A DNA stretch of 64,000 bases from a virus. The notes beneath the pieces were generated by a model. The model saw only the letters and a list, made by a program, of their open reading frames with translations, ran no database searches and was not told the DNA's origin. The stretch lies in IMG/VR virus record IMGVR_UViG_3300048548_000653, positions 1-64,000 of that record. One strand, written 5' to 3'. Each line of letters starts with the position of its first letter. Position 1 is the stretch's first letter. Of this stretch, positions 26,931 to 55,835 are shown in pieces. The translations under genes were made by a program, and so were the position numbers.

Positions 26931-27617
26931 TTAGTCAATGTCAGGGAATAAACATTCCTGTACGAATACTCGTACATCCTCTTCGTCGAGTCCTAAACTG
27001 GTCATTGTTTTAGGAGTGTGCGGATTTTGTTTTTGATAATGTGCATAACGATTCTGTGCTGTTTTTACTTCGTCTGTATCTGCTGTATGATTATGATTAC
27101 CAATGTCTGTAAGATAAGCATCTACACTGTCTAAACTCAACTCTAACAGTTGATCAAGTTCTTCACGTTTGTTCACATTGCCTGCTGCTACCATATGCGG
27201 TGAGAAGATTGCTTGAGCCCATTCAGGTAGTTCACGTTCTTTGCGCCATTCAAGTTTGCTTACTTCGTCACCAAATGCTTCAATCATTGGATGATCGGCA
27301 TCTATAGTTCTACTGTAGTCGTGGAAGAACCCTGTAATTTTATTTTTACCAGCAATAACATCTAGTCCAAAAACAGGACCGTTATTGTCTAGTCTTGGAA
27401 AAACACAACAATGCATCATCCACAAACCTTTGGTTTCACGCACATCCACAACATCAATGTGTGCTCTACGATAGCTGTCACTTTGCCATACTCTGTTTAA
27501 CCAACCAGGCTGATTGAATCTATCCATTCCTGGCTCTTGTATTTCTGTACCCGTAGCGTCAAATGCATCAATTAACCTGTCTTGTATTTCTATTAAGGTT
27601 TCCCAAACTTCACTCAT
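26931..27617 (-). CDS. pcyX: Ferredoxin-dependent bilin reductase (PcyX-like)
   Basis: 228 aa. GPVFGLDVIAG (D86) and the segment ITGFFHDYS (D100), then ELPEWAQAIFSPHMV, match the FDBR family (PcyA, PebS, PcyX) that reduces biliverdin with ferredoxin electrons. The gene overlaps heme oxygenase by 8 bases, giving a heme-to-biliverdin-to-bilin path. PcyX-type enzymes are known mainly from marine viral metagenomes tied to alphaproteobacterial hosts; phycoerythrobilin is the reported product for that family. No bilin-binding partner is visible here. Confidence 0.85.
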   Translation of the reverse strand: MSEVWETLIEIQDRLIDAFDATGTEIQEPGMDRFNQPGWLNRVWQSDSYRRAHIDVVDVRETKGLWMMHCCVFPRLDNNGPVFGLDVIAGKNKITGFFHDYSRTIDADHPMIEAFGDEVSKLEWRKERELPEWAQAIFSPHMVAAGNVNKREELDQLLELSLDSVDAYLTDIGNHNHTADTDEVKTAQNRYAHYQKQNPHTPKTMTSLGLDEEDVRVFVQECLFPDID

Positions 27618-28137
27618 TATTTAATTCCTCAAACAATTTGGTTGCATATTTAAAACAAATATTTGCTTCCTCTGCCATTTCGTCATCCAACACAGTACGA
27701 ACTTTTATTTTAAGGTCTTCGACATTATCAAAATCATACATAACACCTTTTGTAAATGGAATACGTTTTTTAATCATTTGACCTCCATACATATCTCCAA
27801 AGTGTCTAACATAAACGTGGGCCATTAGTTCATCACTATCAAGTGTAGGAAGGTAATTAATATAATCTACAGCACTAGGTTTTAGTTTATCTTTTGTTCT
27901 TTTAAAACCATATTCGTGTTCTAATTCTTTTAAATCAATACTAATGCGTTTGGCTCTGCGTATGTCTTCAATGCCGTCTAAGTCAGCTAATGATTCAAGA
28001 GAACCGTAGATAATAAATTGATTGTACAAGTAGGTGTGATATTGTTCAGGAGTAATACCATTCATAAGTTTCCTGGCAAATGCTGTTCTTTCAGCATTTT
28101 GATGATTCTCCCAAGTAAGTTCTTTAAGTTTGCTCAT
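27610..28137 (-). CDS. ho1: Heme oxygenase
   Basis: 175 aa. Proximal haem ligand H12 in ENHQNAER, and HVYVRHFGDMYGGQMI with the distal-helix Gly motif, identify a HO1-type enzyme that opens haem to biliverdin, CO and iron. Somewhat shorter than cyanobacterial HO1. ClpS overlaps its start by 4 bases. Confidence 0.9.
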   Translation of the reverse strand: MSKLKELTWENHQNAERTAFARKLMNGITPEQYHTYLYNQFIIYGSLESLADLDGIEDIRRAKRISIDLKELEHEYGFKRTKDKLKPSAVDYINYLPTLDSDELMAHVYVRHFGDMYGGQMIKKRIPFTKGVMYDFDNVEDLKIKVRTVLDDEMAEEANICFKYATKLFEELNNE

Positions 28138-28436
28138 TCTTCCTCAATTTTTACATTTAGCTGAAACCCATTTTGCCTTGCTAAATTTACAGTTTCCGTA
28201 GCTTTTTGTTCTGCTATTTCGTAACTATATATACCTGCAACTCCGCTTCCTTCTTCGTGAATTTGAATGGTTAAAGCAGAAGCAGTTTCAAAAGAGTGTT
28301 TGAATATTTCTTGTAAAATACTTACAACAAAATCCATTGGTGTTTTATCATCATTAAGGAAAATGACTTTGCAATCCTTAGGTTCTGAAATATCAATTTC
28401 AATTTTTTCGTCAATTACTACATCAGTTTTATTCAT
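28134..28436 (-). CDS. clpS: ClpS N-end rule adaptor
   Basis: 100 aa. KVIFLNDDKTPMDFVV, IQIHEEGSGVAGIYSYEIAE and a C-terminal beta strand match ClpS throughout, including the NDDxTPMxFVV and H residues that bind N-degron side chains. It delivers substrates to ClpA. With the viral ClpP it points to redirected proteolysis. Confidence 0.92.
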   Translation of the reverse strand: MNKTDVVIDEKIEIDISEPKDCKVIFLNDDKTPMDFVVSILQEIFKHSFETASALTIQIHEEGSGVAGIYSYEIAEQKATETVNLARQNGFQLNVKIEEE

Positions 28437-28449
28437 ATTTTTCTCCTAA

Positions 28450-28474
28450 AAATGGGGGGCTGTTACTCCCCCAT
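28450..28474 (-). terminator. Rho-independent terminator after hsp20
   Basis: Minus strand: ATGGGGG, loop, CCCCCCAT then TTTTT. It ends the small heat-shock unit before clpS. Confidence 0.75.
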
Positions 28475-28479
28475 AACTA

Positions 28480-28926
28480 TTAGCCTTCAATTGCATCAAA
28501 GTTTTTGATAGAAATTTTCTTTGGTTTCTGTGCTTCTGGTACATTGCGCACCAAATGAATGTTAAGCATACCTAGTTCAAGCCCGGCTTGTTCTACTTCA
28601 ATATGCTCTGCTAGAGTAAACTCTCTACGGAAGTTGCGTCCGCCAATACCTTTGTGTAGGTAGTTAACTTCTTCATCTCCTTTAGGAGTAGTACCTTCAA
28701 CAGTCAATACATTTTTCTCCAATGTAATGTCTAAATTGTCCATACCAAATCCAGCAACCGCCAACGAGATCATATATTCGTCTTCGTTGATTTCTACTAC
28801 ATTGTATGGTGGGTAACCTTGTGATTTACTGTTTGCAAACTCTTTGTTGAGTTGGTTAAACATTCTATCAAAGCCAATAGTTGCTCTGTGAAATTCAGGT
28901 AGGTTTAGTGTTTGTAATCTTGTCAT
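28480..28926 (-). CDS. Small heat-shock protein Hsp20
   Basis: 148 aa from ATG 28926 with SD AAGGAG. An alpha-crystallin domain spans about residues 35-130 (EYMISLAVAGFGMDNLDITL, NYLHKGIGGRNFRREFTL). The C-terminal I-x-I-like tail (ISIKN) is present. Hsp20 is near-universal in T4-like cyanophages, where a role in head assembly is suspected. A late promoter plus hairpin precedes it. Confidence 0.92.
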   Translation of the reverse strand: MTRLQTLNLPEFHRATIGFDRMFNQLNKEFANSKSQGYPPYNVVEINEDEYMISLAVAGFGMDNLDITLEKNVLTVEGTTPKGDEEVNYLHKGIGGRNFRREFTLAEHIEVEQAGLELGMLNIHLVRNVPEAQKPKKISIKNFDAIEG

Positions 28927-28952
28927 TTGTTTCTCCTTATAAAGCAAGAATT

Positions 28953-28981
28953 ATATTGAGCCCTTTCGGCGCTCACAGTTA
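28953..28981 (-). promoter_or_regulatory. Late promoter motif with leader hairpin
   Basis: GGTAAATAAC followed by GAGC-GCCGAAAGG-GCTC, then SD AAGGAG at ATG 28926. The TAA in the motif is the guaC stop codon. Confidence 0.5.
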
Positions 28982-30118
28982 TTTACCAATTGTCGATGAT
29001 TCATACACCGAATTGTGTGTTTGTGAGCAACGAATAAAAGTTGCACACTTACTAAGTTGCTTGAGTTTTAATGCACCTGTATAGGTACACGCACTACGCA
29101 CTCCTCCAAGGATCTCTTGTACTGTTCTAGCTACAGGTCCTCTATAAGGCACAAGCACTGTGCGTCCTTCTGATGAACGATAATTTTTTAGTCCACCAAA
29201 ATGCTTGTCATTTGCACTTTCACTACTCATACCGTAGAATTGCACAAAATGTTTTTCTTTAAACTTTCGAGTCCTTCCATCATCCTGGAATTCATCTGTA
29301 ATATACTTTCTAGTAATTACTTCGCCGCCGCCTTCATCGTGCCCAGCAAGCATACCACCAAGCATAACAAAATCTGCACCGGCTGCAAAGGCTTTAGCGA
29401 CATCTCCAGAGCTATTACACCCACCGTCAGCAATAATGTGACCACCAAGTCCGTGTGCTGCATCAGCGCATTCGATGACTGCAGATAGTTGCGGATATCC
29501 CACACCAGTTTGTATCCTAGTAGTGCAAACAGACCCGGGACCAATGCCCACTTTAACAATATCAGCTCCTGCAAGAATAAGTTCCTCCGTCATTTCTCGT
29601 GTAACAACATTACCTGCAATGATTACCAAGTCTGGAAAATCGTCTCTTACTTTACGAACGTGTTGTGCAAAGTGATCGCTGTAACCATTGGCAATGTCCA
29701 TACATACATATTTAAGCCTGTAGTCACATTCTTTTTTCACTTTCAATAATTTGTTATAATCACTTTCGCCTGTGCCAATACTCATTGCAACATTTTCAGT
29801 ACGTTCAAGCCCAATATCAGAATTAAAATATTCTATCAACTCTTCAGCACTGAAAGTTTTTACAAGACAAGTAAACATTTCGCCTTCTGCTAATTTATCA
29901 GCCATACGAAACGTTCCGACACCATCCATATTGCTTGCCATAATAGGAATACCCATATAATGATATTCATCAGGCAATGGTTCTGCAATGTCGTGATCAT
30001 AATGCCGAAATTGAAACTTACGATTTAATTTCACTTGTTTCCGGCTATGCAATGTACTGCGTTTTGGACGTATAAGAACGTCTTTGTAATCTAATTTAAT
30101 GTCTTCTTCGAGACGCAT
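28979..30118 (-). CDS. guaC: GMP reductase
   Basis: 379 aa. [14 protein letters not shown], the Cys loop [20 protein letters not shown] and [20 protein letters not shown] match GuaC more closely than IMP dehydrogenase; no CBS domains are present. It converts GMP to IMP with NADPH, freeing guanine nucleotides toward adenine nucleotides. Adjacent to bS21 and Hsp20. Confidence 0.88.
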
Positions 30119-40543: not shown

Positions 40544-41455
40544 CTATATAGTATTTTTTTCCTGTATAAAATTATTGTAATTACTAATTCTAAATGTAAT
40601 TCTATGTAACACACGTTCAGCAAGTATTTCTGGATCGTTTTGATCACGCTTATGTAAAGTTAATAATTGATCCATTAACACAATATCTCCTGGTTCGTAC
40701 CAATGCTGATAAATGTATTTGTCTTGGAACATATGATCATATAAACGTTGAAACAGTGTTTCGTCTTGTGTAATTATTTTACATTTATTGTTAGTGTAAA
40801 AGTAAATGCCTTTGACACCTGCGATGTTTTGTTGGAGCAACCACATTTTATAAGGACCATCTTCGCCGTCCTTTTTCATCATTTTGTACTGTGTTTCGTT
40901 TAGTCCTTTTGCCCAAACCTCTGGTGTATAGCTATATTCACAATGCACACCTTCTAATTCTTTTTTAAAGTCATCATCTAAATCATTGTATGCTAGATTT
41001 GTATTCAAATAACTTGTGCTAGTATTTTCACAACCTTCGTAACCTTGTAGTGCTACACCATCAGCACGATCCAATCCGTTTAAGTTGGCGTGCCAATCTA
41101 AAATACCACTGCTGAATATACCAGTTGTAATACCTTTTTTATTTTTTTTACCTGTCGTTCTTTGTATAGGATATAGTTCTTTGTCTTTATCCCATTTGTC
41201 AGTGTTAGGAGGAGTCTTACCAATATAAAACTCCCCTTCTTTTGTATAAATCATTTGTCTGTAGTTAGCAACTGTGCCTATACGTTCCACAAAATTAACA
41301 AACCAATATGGTAATCTTTCTTGATGCTTTAATACAACTATTAAGTCTTTGCGTAAGATATTTTTTATTTTATCAGCATCACTATCACTTAAATTTGTAA
41401 TGTCAACATTATTAATTTGTGTAGCTACACCGTTTAAACTTTCTACTTGCATCAT
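40544..41455 (-). CDS. TauD/TfdA-like Fe(II)/2OG oxygenase
   Basis: 303 aa. Overall layout fits the TauD family; the iron motif near LDWHANLNG reads HxN rather than HxD, with a distal His in LTLHKRD and a late Arg in HRITFRIS. Cyanophages have similar TauD-like proteins. The Asn may weaken or alter metal binding. Overlaps the PRTase gene by 4 bases. Confidence 0.65.
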   Translation of the reverse strand: MMQVESLNGVATQINNVDITNLSDSDADKIKNILRKDLIVVLKHQERLPYWFVNFVERIGTVANYRQMIYTKEGEFYIGKTPPNTDKWDKDKELYPIQRTTGKKNKKGITTGIFSSGILDWHANLNGLDRADGVALQGYEGCENTSTSYLNTNLAYNDLDDDFKKELEGVHCEYSYTPEVWAKGLNETQYKMMKKDGEDGPYKMWLLQQNIAGVKGIYFYTNNKCKIITQDETLFQRLYDHMFQDKYIYQHWYEPGDIVLMDQLLTLHKRDQNDPEILAERVLHRITFRISNYNNFIQEKNTI

Positions 41456-43083: not shown

Positions 43084-43698
43084 TTATTTACTATCTTCTG
43101 AAAGTCGTCCATTAATATACTTTAGTAGTAATCCGTATGCTGGTAAGAAAATAACCAACCCTACGCCAATCTTCAGTACTGTTTGTGATCCTGCAATCTC
43201 CATCCAGTTTGCTGCCATATACTCATCTGCTGAGTTGTTGAATGCCACCCAAAAGAAAGTGTAACTATCAATAATATTGGCTGCTACTGTTGATACAGCT
43301 GGTGCTAACCACCAAGCCTTATACTTTTCACGCAAATACTGGAAGACATAAACGTCTAACATTGTTCCAATAGCATAGGCTGTTGCACTTGCAAAACCAA
43401 TACGCAGTGCCACTGATTGTGGTGCGCCTTCAAGCATTACAACTGCAATGCTTCCGATGATTGCCAACGGATATGCCGCTGCAATTGTTGCTCGAGCAAT
43501 ATTCTTACCTAACATTCTAACTGTTAAGTCAGTTGCTAAAACAACTAATGGGAACGTAAATGCTGCCCAAGTTAATTTGATACCAGCTATTTCTACTGGA
43601 ATAGCAACTAGTGCATTACTTACTGTGATAACAACTACGTGTAATAACACTAGTTTGAGCAACATACTTCTATCAATGTTTTTAAAAATTCCTATCAT
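43084..43698 (-). CDS. Queuosine precursor transporter (YhhQ/QPTR family)
   Basis: 204 aa, about six membrane helices. FPLVVLATDLTVRMLGKNIA, then DVYVFQYLRE, and NIIDSYTFFWVAF match the VUT/YhhQ family, which imports 7-deazaguanine (preQ0/preQ1) for tRNA queuosine; some phages use such bases in DNA. No other que gene is in this window. Follows the tmRNA gene with SD AAGGGAG. Confidence 0.8.
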   Translation of the reverse strand: MIGIFKNIDRSMLLKLVLLHVVVITVSNALVAIPVEIAGIKLTWAAFTFPLVVLATDLTVRMLGKNIARATIAAAYPLAIIGSIAVVMLEGAPQSVALRIGFASATAYAIGTMLDVYVFQYLREKYKAWWLAPAVSTVAANIIDSYTFFWVAFNNSADEYMAANWMEIAGSQTVLKIGVGLVIFLPAYGLLLKYINGRLSEDSK

Positions 43699-43724
43699 AC
43701 AATTCTCCCTTGTTTTGGAATGAG

Positions 43725-44008
43725 GCCCGTTCTGTTGCTAGGTGGAACCCATACCCCGCATACCTAATTAGGCTGCAATTGCCATTGCTGGCGCACGATT
43801 GTCATTTGCAATTGTGAATGTTGACCAATAACGCAGTCATCCGGTAAACTCCACTTCACTTTCACACCTGTCGATCCTAGTTCAGCCCCATCATAATTAC
43901 TCTATGCCGTAAATTTGTAGTTTTTACGCTACAAAGTAATTATGGTGGAGCTGCCGGGTACTGCCCCCGGGTCCAGTATGCGTTCACGTTGCTTCAACGT
44001 CTACAGTC
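43725..44008 (-). ncRNA. ssrA: Circularly permuted two-piece tmRNA
   Basis: The acceptor piece comes first: GGACCCGGGGGCAGTACCC, GGCAGCTCC and encoded ACCA end at 43943. An intervening loop (43942-43890, closed by TAATTAC/GTAATTA) follows, then the coding piece starts at 43889 with GGGGCTG, which pairs with CAGCTCC of the acceptor. The tag ORF (43810-43769) reads ANDNRAPAMAIAA then TAA, with ANDN start and AA end as in alphaproteobacteria. It rescues stalled ribosomes and marks their products for proteolysis. Ends are approximate. Confidence 0.93.
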
Positions 44009-44010
44009 TA

Positions 44011-44039
44011 TTTATAACATAGATTTAAGCTTGTGTCAA
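44011..44039 (-). promoter_or_regulatory. Promoter of the tmRNA gene, early and late type
   Basis: -35 TTGACA (44039-44034), 17-base spacer, -10 TATAAA (44016-44011). The -10 is part of TATAAATA (44016-44009), a perfect T4 late element, so both sigma-70 and the late sigma could use it. Confidence 0.8.
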
Positions 44040-54348: not shown

Positions 54349-54377
54349 ATGATAACATTAAAGATCGGATAAGTCAA
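54349..54377 (-). promoter_or_regulatory. Sigma-70 promoter of the exonuclease gene
   Basis: -35 TTGACT (54377-54372), 17-base spacer, -10 TATCAT (54354-54349), overlapping the last codons of the upstream frame. Confidence 0.65.
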
Positions 54378-54654
54378 CGGCTCGTTTTGCCATTTTTCCT
54401 ACACTGTCTCCATCAGCACCGCCTTTTGGTGCTTTGTCAACGAAACTTACTTCTTCCTGTGTGTAGTGTCCAATTAGTCCTTTGATTCTTTCGTCTGCTT
54501 GGTAAGCTGCATCAAATGTTTCATAGTTAAACTGTGGAACTTCATTGTTGTCCATCATTTTGTCTAAATCTTCAAATGAAATAGACTGGACACCTTCTGA
54601 CTTCAATAGTCGAAGTAATCGATAAAGATTGTCGCTGTTTACTTCTTCAGTTAC
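54358..54654 (-). CDS. Extension frame of the prohead-core-like gene (possible -1 frameshift product)
   Basis: 98 codons in the -1 frame directly after the slippery A AAA AAG at 54660-54654, starting VTEEVNSDNL and ending DLSDL. The frame has no ATG or GTG near its 5' end; the first possible start is a TTG at 54606 with no SD. Acidic and helical, like the scaffold protein it would extend. Either a frameshifted C-terminal extension (total about 492 aa), a separate TTG gene, or the result of an error in the A9 run. Confidence 0.5.
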   Translation of the reverse strand, partial: VTEEVNSDNLYRLLRLLKSEGVQSISFEDLDKMMDNNEVPQFNYETFDAAYQADERIKGLIGHYTQEEVSFVDKAPKGGADGDSVGKMAKRAVDLSDL

Positions 54655-55835
54655 TTTTTTTTTGAAAGTGTACGTGCTAGTTTACGTGAGTCAACACTTT
54701 CACTCGGTGCTGCTCTACGATCGCCTCTCATAGCTTTTAATTTTGCAAGTGCTTGTGGATTTAATTTCAATACACCTGCATCAATCATCATTTTTACAGC
54801 CGGATCATCTAGCATAAATTCTGCAGGAACTTTGTTTCCATCTTTATCAAATGTCCAATATTGTTTACCTTTGATATTTTGTTTTGGTCCTGAACCAAAC
54901 TTATTTTGAATACTTTTTTGTAAATTTAGATCTGCAGGATCGTTGCTGTCCATTCCACCAAACTCGTCTAGTTCAACACTTTCACGTGTCTCTCTGCCTG
55001 CTGGTTCTTCGCCGCCTGCTGCTGCTGGTGCTGCTGCAAAATCATCATCTGCGGGTGGCACAACACCTGCTGCATCATCCATATCAACGGTTGGCTCTAA
55101 GCCTGCAGCCATATCGTCGCCGCCCATTGGAGGCTGCATTTCACCTTCGCCTGTCAACATCATAACACCACTACTCAGTGCGCCTCTAGTTGACTCTAAT
55201 GAAGCATAAAGTTCGTCCAAGCTTGCTTTGATTGTTTCAACATACTGGTTACTTTGATCTACGCCCATTTCGTCTCTAACAGCATCAGCAAGATCCAACA
55301 TTGATTCTGTTTTCATTTCTGCTGTATCTTCCATCCAACCTGTTACTCTGTCAACCATATCCTTAGCTGCCATAACAATCTCTGCTTGGTCTTCTGCACC
55401 TTCACGTACAACAGATTCTTTTGCTTCTGCATCTGCTTTTTTGTTACCAGCATCGACCATTGCTTTGATACCTTTAGACTTTTTGTCTTTGGCTGCTTTT
55501 TTCATTGGCTCTTTTTTGTCGCCATCTTTATCCAAATCAAGGAAATCTGGCTTTGCACCTTCTAGCATATCATCATCAATGTCACCACGTTCACTAATTT
55601 CAGCATTTAACACATCTAAAAATAATTTAGATTTTTGATACTCATCGCTTTCAACTACATTACTAAAACTTTCGTTCATTTCGATTTGACTTAGTCTTGT
55701 TCTAAGTTTGTTACGAGCATTATGTAATTGTGCTAGTGTAAAAGATTCTAATGCAATGCGTTTTCCGAAACGTTTTGCAAGGCTTTCGTTTAATTTTTTT
55801 GCTGTTACTGGTTTAGCGAACTCTGAAATATTCAT
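54651..55835 (-). CDS. Prohead core/scaffold-like protein
   Basis: 394 aa. The start MNISEFAKPVTAKKLNESLA and LHNARNKLRTRLSQIEMNES match head-assembly proteins of T4-like cyanophages. The middle has FLDLDKDGDKKEPMKKAA (EF-hand-like), long acidic Pro/Ala-rich linkers and several I/L-x-E sites for a prohead protease. The gene ends CTT TCA AAA AAA AAG TAA, a slippery site next to the stop. Late-type GATAAATAC precedes it. Confidence 0.65.
   Translation of the reverse strand: MNISEFAKPVTAKKLNESLAKRFGKRIALESFTLAQLHNARNKLRTRLSQIEMNESFSNVVESDEYQKSKLFLDVLNAEISERGDIDDDMLEGAKPDFLDLDKDGDKKEPMKKAAKDKKSKGIKAMVDAGNKKADAEAKESVVREGAEDQAEIVMAAKDMVDRVTGWMEDTAEMKTESMLDLADAVRDEMGVDQSNQYVETIKASLDELYASLESTRGALSSGVMMLTGEGEMQPPMGGDDMAAGLEPTVDMDDAAGVVPPADDDFAAAPAAAGGEEPAGRETRESVELDEFGGMDSNDPADLNLQKSIQNKFGSGPKQNIKGKQYWTFDKDGNKVPAEFMLDDPAVKMMIDAGVLKLNPQALAKLKAMRGDRRAAPSESVDSRKLARTLSKKK
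54654..54660 (-). promoter_or_regulatory. Candidate -1 frameshift site A AAA AAG
   Basis: Same heptamer as E. coli dnaX, inside A9, with the zero-frame stop TAA immediately after it. A weak hairpin (ACTTC-GACTATT-GAAGT, 54616-54600) lies 38 bases downstream, too far to be a typical stimulator. Confidence 0.45.

Follow-up and report, generated by a model that had tools for sequence, protein, structure and literature searches.

In a large family of uncultured marine phages, T4-related and probably jumbo, a gene for a virion structural protein very likely ends in a programmed −1 ribosomal frameshift; slippage at the heptamer A AAA AAG would yield a 394-aa protein and a 492-aa fusion. The window, a 64,000-nucleotide stretch from an IMG/VR virus record of 76,977 bases, carries the gene on its minus strand (Table 1). 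A share of the ribosomes would terminate at the TAA adjacent to the heptamer and release the 394-aa protein, while the rest would slip one base back and add a C-terminal domain of 98 residues. Such a slip would set the dose of the extension and attach it to the upstream protein by a covalent bond; on this reading, the downstream gene of the marine clade has lost its own start and depends on the slip. Computation shows conservation of the site, synonymous constraint limited to the lineages that have it, a coding −1 frame, and replacement of the slip site by an ATG in at least three lineages; the efficiency of the slip and the entry of both forms into the virion we infer.

The zero-frame ORF has the C-terminus ...RTLSKKK, with the gene end spelled TCA AAA AAA AAG TAA. 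From the slip onward the −1 frame reads VTEEVNSDNLYRLL...DLSDL and terminates at a TAA (54360–54358), and the predicted fusion has a peptide of the SKKKVTEEVNSDNLYR type across the junction. An earlier note on this DNA had given the coordinates, the heptamer, the A9 run, the 98 open codons and the adjacent TAA, all of which were correct on rereading. Its remark that the −1 frame has no ATG or GTG start holds upstream of the conserved part of the extension: the earliest possible start is a TTG at 54606, 17 codons in, and in the window this falls after the start of the conserved first helix. The acidic character that it ascribed to the extension was borne out by a hand count (about 20 D/E against 14 K/R). 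Fourteen bases separate the extension stop from the ATG of the next gene, which encodes a PD-(D/E)XK exonuclease; the other neighbours encode a tail-spike-like protein and NrdA. A second contig (L001) carries the identical gene.

Table 1. Features of the frameshift locus, in window coordinates
Feature	Position	Strand	Basis or remark
Upstream zero-frame gene, virion structural protein (short product 394 aa)	54651..55835	−	ORF
A9 run containing the heptamer	54655..54663	−	read directly
Slippery heptamer A AAA AAG	54654..54660	−	zero-frame phase needed for tandem −1 slippage
Zero-frame stop TAA, directly 3′ of the heptamer	54651..54653	−	read directly
Extension in the −1 frame, 98 codons and stop	54358..54654	−	would complete the 492-aa fusion
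V-T-E, the three residues that follow the slip (candidate site for a prohead protease, [V/I/L]-x-E)	54646..54654	−	motif
Region 3′ of the slip with reduced synonymous divergence (may act as an RNA stimulator)	54550..54653	−	pS comparison

Scans of IMG/VR turned up relatives by the hundred; we retrieved the 80 best for each query and added four from bacterial genome bins. Removal of exact duplicates, the sole dereplication applied, and of two cut-off copies left 132 classifiable loci, whose counts are not phylogenetically independent. A locus was called frameshift type if it had an in-phase slippery heptamer, a zero-frame stop 0–6 codons on and a long open −1 frame. The heptamer is found at 106 loci and is missing from 26; L107, which combines a heptamer with an ATG for the extension, was kept apart, so that 105 loci are of the frameshift type. 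The extension has its own ATG in 27 of the 132 relatives, among which L107 alone retains the heptamer; in the other 26 the ATG lies anywhere from an overlap with the stop (TAATG, in L019, L033, L036 and L077) to 13 bases past it. An in-frame fusion of the two parts was found at none of the 132 loci. Independent starts, which the earlier note had listed as evidence against slippage, thus do occur in homologs, cultured phages included, but with the heptamer gone from every marine one except L107 they support the case for the slip site.

The heptamer is A AAA AAG at 92 of the 106 loci, A AAA AAA at 12 and A AAA AAC at two. The A run that contains it is nine long at 77 loci and eight to ten long at 91, with a range of six to ten, and the two-frame relation is kept throughout; a run of ten or eight that simply joins the frames, as the earlier note had allowed for, was found in no relative. 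One clade (L078, L169–L178) has a run of only six and still retains the heptamer, the stop and the open −1 frame. In L155 the peptide is still SKKK, yet its codons are TCA AAG AAG AAG and the extension has its own ATG, which indicates that the slip codons relax when an ATG is present. L107 (3945–3990) is in a mixed state, with an in-phase A AAA AAG, an open −1 frame and, just downstream, an ATG (MLVSDIL), and may represent a switch between modes.

Chance does not account for this arrangement. We compared 1459 distinct ORF ends (ORFs of at least 100 aa) from the fetched loci: an in-phase slippery heptamer near the end together with a −1 frame open for at least 70 codons was found at 88 copies of this gene and at seven other ORFs, one of which (in L073) is a second copy of the same gene. 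That copy (L073:5091–6295) is a partial tandem one, comprising the end of the upstream gene, the slip site and the extension, and is fused in frame to a truncated exonuclease; it is either a real duplication or an assembly artefact.

Codon usage and divergence also mark the site. The P-site codon is AAA at all 105 frameshift-type loci and the A-site codon is AAG at 91, while elsewhere in the gene only 28% of Lys codons are AAG. In codon-aligned comparisons (62 frameshift-type pairs, 37 own-ATG pairs), synonymous divergence over the last four zero-frame codons of frameshift lineages is 0.083, against 0.31–0.48 in the preceding codons, and reaches 0.708 at the corresponding codons of own-ATG lineages. 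Purifying selection continues past the stop, with a median dN/dS of 0.155 for the extension (136 usable pairs); by this measure the extension is evolving as a protein. ATG, GTG and TTG are all missing from its first six codons at 101 of the 105 loci. The earlier note's proposal of programmed slippage to a longer form, which it supposed to be minor, is thereby strongly supported as regards the slippage itself, on four counts: conservation, synonymous constraint, purifying selection and the natural replacements by an own ATG.

Some lineages may add an RNA stimulator. The first 35 or so codons of the extension have a pS of 0.28–0.44 in frameshift lineages against 0.58–0.66 for codons 35–75, a reduction not seen in own-ATG lineages. 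Predicted folding of the 60 nt after the heptamer has a mean z of −1.11, compared with −0.14 to −0.54 well away from the site, and z falls below −1.5 in 38% of cases after the heptamer, compared with 14–18% well away from it. Clear hairpins are found in L144 (z −6.8), L014 (−4.6), L178 (−4.2) and L078 (−2.2). The last two belong to the clade with an A run of six, where a strong hairpin begins ~5 nt downstream of the heptamer. The window's own downstream structure is predicted to be weak (z −0.44). Upstream Shine-Dalgarno-like matches of at least five bases were not above background, with none clear in the window; four-base matches numbered 45 against 23 expected, from which we claim no stimulator.

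Slippage by RNA polymerase, adding or dropping bases in the A9 run so that some of the mRNA carries the fusion as a single frame, would produce a similar outcome. Runs of nine A or T make bacterial RNA polymerase slip efficiently, for example in Thermus dnaX (PMC5009743), and the prevalence of runs of nine, or of eight to ten, at our slip-type loci fits such a process; so does the codon before the Lys run, which is TCA in 79 of 89 TCN codons against 69% elsewhere, with A9 somewhat favoured over A8. This explanation does not sit well with the clade that has kept heptamer, stop and open −1 frame on a run of six. Moreover, the A-site AAG is the optimum for tRNA slippage, whereas a polymerase would favour unbroken A, and a downstream hairpin better suits ribosomes. 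We therefore consider polymerase slippage unlikely and favour the ribosome.

The downstream frame could instead be translated alone, by re-initiation or from an unusual start, with no fusion made. Own-ATG forms exist, some of them as TAATG, and four slip-type loci have a GTG exactly at the junction; nevertheless, nearly all slip-type extensions begin with six codons free of any start, the window's TTG lies inside the conserved part, and the synonymous constraint on the slip codons is confined to slip-type lineages, all of which makes this reading very improbable. As homopolymers are error-prone, a sequencing or assembly error, or else a decaying gene, also had to be weighed. The 105 loci come from many separate assemblies and all keep the two-frame relation while their runs vary from six to ten, which excludes a miscounted homopolymer; the identical gene on the second contig and the purifying selection past the stop also speak against error or decay, whose likelihood we put as negligible.

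A tree built from the upstream protein puts the frameshift state at the base of the marine clade. An own ATG has arisen three or more times (in the L019, L046/L041 and L099 groups), and the frameshift-type L110 nests within an own-ATG group. The root as drawn is a midpoint root and lands between the cultured and the marine rows. Since the cultured outgroup has separate genes, the first change was probably toward frameshifting, and the order was probably from separate genes to a frameshift and back several times.

The upstream protein is a structural protein of the virion, probably of its head. PHROG 14154, 'virion structural protein', matches the window protein and 66 of 72 family members; its other profile matches are unnamed families, and no further named family was found. 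A model (AlphaFold2) has a helical N-terminal domain (residues 1–83), a helical hairpin (145–228) and a disordered acidic linker; a fold search with this protein gave no matches. A module of ~96 residues near the C-terminus of the 394-aa protein (54696–54983, minus strand) is missing in nearly all relatives, but L105 (3391–3648) has a 50% identical copy elsewhere within the same gene, and the module looks like one that inserts into disordered linkers.

The closest relatives in culture are Rak2-like jumbo phages. Searches of cultured phages (tblastn) with the window protein and with the extension gave no matches; the link was found through a divergent relative and through the neighbouring exonuclease. 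The divergent member L046 aligns with CBB gp298/GAP32 gp293 (29% over 42%, E = 3e-3), the extension with CBB gp299 (hhalign E 0.008, probability 5%), and a C-terminal V..MA..A motif is common to the last two. The marine family and the Rak2-like phages also have in common the gene order before the PD-(D/E)XK exonuclease and NrdA. The sequence similarity is low, so the case for homology to the CBB proteins also draws on gene order and the motif. In the cultured phages the pairs are separate genes with their own starts (CBB gp298–gp299, GAP32 293–294, RaK2 135–136 and XbC2 294–295). Both proteins have been detected in CBB virions, CBB_298 with 10 peptides and CBB_299 with two (PMC5259590).

Fused and own-ATG extensions align as one family, in which M91, A92 and A95 are invariant. 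Sequence searches of Pfam, PHROG and PDB with the extension returned scattered weak matches of no consistent kind. Its model (AlphaFold2, mean pLDDT 71.5) runs helix-strand-helix-helix-helix-strand-strand. Against PDB folds the resemblance is to winged-helix proteins and is weak (best E 0.024, TM 0.46–0.48), so that a winged-helix-like fold is suggestive only; against viral folds the best match (E 0.0019) is an uncharacterised protein.

The earlier note had called the upstream gene a prohead core gene, a label that we find unsupported. No sequence or profile match links the gene to a T4-type core family (gp21, gp22, gp67, gp68), the matches being to PHROG 14154 and unnamed families. In a 335-kb relative with a frameshift-type copy, the frameshift gene is at ~27 kb, and gp21 and gp23, identified by profile, are at 235.9–238.7 kb; the whole portal-gp21-gp22-gp23 cluster, its portal and gp22 assigned by position, is thus ~209 kb away. 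That relative (G001:C57 and C77; L219, L226, L227) is binned in a Neomarinimicrobiota genome and looks like a T4-related jumbo phage. The bin has a second contig with identical matches, which suggests a duplicate or a closely related sibling.

A lambda-type tail assembly chaperone was also rejected: no tape-measure gene lies directly downstream, and the adjoining genes are those for the exonuclease, the tail-spike-like protein and NrdA. The earlier note's term 'dnaX-type' is right for the heptamer, which is identical to that of Escherichia coli dnaX, but not for the outcome, as the dnaX shift truncates its product and the shift here extends it; neither a DnaX match nor any other relationship to the dnaX product was found.

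The first residues after the slip suggest a use for the fusion. A hydrophobic-x-E motif, [ILVMAF]-x-E, is found in the first 16 residues of all 132 extensions, compared with 15% of later 16-residue stretches. Own-ATG extensions begin MKVFELYE, MRVSDIILE or MLMSDIINE, and fused extensions have lost the start while keeping V-T-E or a similar sequence at the junction. In the upstream protein, L15-N16-E17 and E145 are invariant in the marine set and also lie in a hydrophobic-x-E context. A simple pattern for targeting-like N-termini, applied to the other genes of the window, was found in 8 of 51 ORFs and revealed no general excess. The precise cleavage motif of T4 gp21 is L/I-x-E. In T4, gp21 cleaves head proteins after the Glu of a short motif, and internal proteins are brought in by an N-terminal targeting peptide of ~10 residues that is then removed (PMC9026906, PMC9958956). 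The [V/I/L]-x-E after the slip suggests, as a motif, cleavage by a prohead protease of the gp21 type. Delivery as a fusion followed by proteolytic release has been described for retroviruses and totiviruses by Atkins and colleagues (PMC5009743). A comparable loading is a tentative proposal here, and one we hold as less likely than its alternatives taken together: the fusion would carry a winged-helix-like cargo into the prohead at a set dose, the protease would release it inside the head, and this route would stand in for the targeting peptide of own-ATG forms. Retroviral Gag-Pol, where frameshifting joins a cargo domain to a component of the virion that the particle's own protease may later cut, is an analogy only: there is no homology, and we infer cleavage and packaging here from the motif.

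Most known frameshifts in phage structural genes concern tail assembly chaperones and major capsid or tail proteins. In T7/T3 gene 10A/10B, the major head protein of Lactobacillus phage A2 and Listeria A118/A500, a virion gene ends, as here, at a −1 slip, and a share of the product is extended at its C-terminus. Those shifts act on the major capsid protein, several of them adding an Ig-like extension, whereas the carrier here is not the major capsid protein and its extension is still a separate gene in relatives. Tail assembly chaperones, lambda gpG/gpGT among them, likewise join two ORFs at a set ratio through a −1 slip close to the end of the gene, which very divergent phages have kept. They differ in that lambda virions contain neither gpG nor gpGT (PMC5009743), while homologs of both halves of our fusion are found in mature CBB virions, and there is no tape-measure neighbour here. 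The CBB, GAP32 and RaK2 (ORF135–136) pairs match the marine genes in order, as virion proteins and in a similar V..MA..A motif, but are two ORFs with no slip site and are very distant in sequence.

Our literature search, mainly of open-access journal papers, found no report of a frameshift in this virion gene or in virion genes of T4-related jumbo phages, an absence that is weak evidence. The frameshift acts on a different virion gene, in T4-related phages that are widespread in marine metagenomes, and has been kept across deep divergence. An ordinary start codon has replaced the slip site several times, and these cases serve as naturally occurring paired controls. If the cleavage is real, a DNA phage loads a protein into its head by fusion and proteolysis, as retroviruses do. 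In most of these phages, the last ~100 residues of a virion protein would also be overlooked by automatic annotation.

Elsewhere, ARAGORN found a permuted tmRNA gene of the two-piece type (43677–44036, minus strand; tag ANDNRAPAMAIAA) and four tRNAs (2410–2739), with no tRNA-Lys in the virus record. Slippage on A AAA AAG is most efficient where there is a single tRNA-Lys. Metabolic genes lie on the minus strand at 40544–41455 and 27610–30118 and include one for a taurine dioxygenase-like protein; the same regions, by eye only, also encode heme-oxygenase-like, ClpS-like, Hsp20-like and IMP dehydrogenase/GMP reductase-like proteins.
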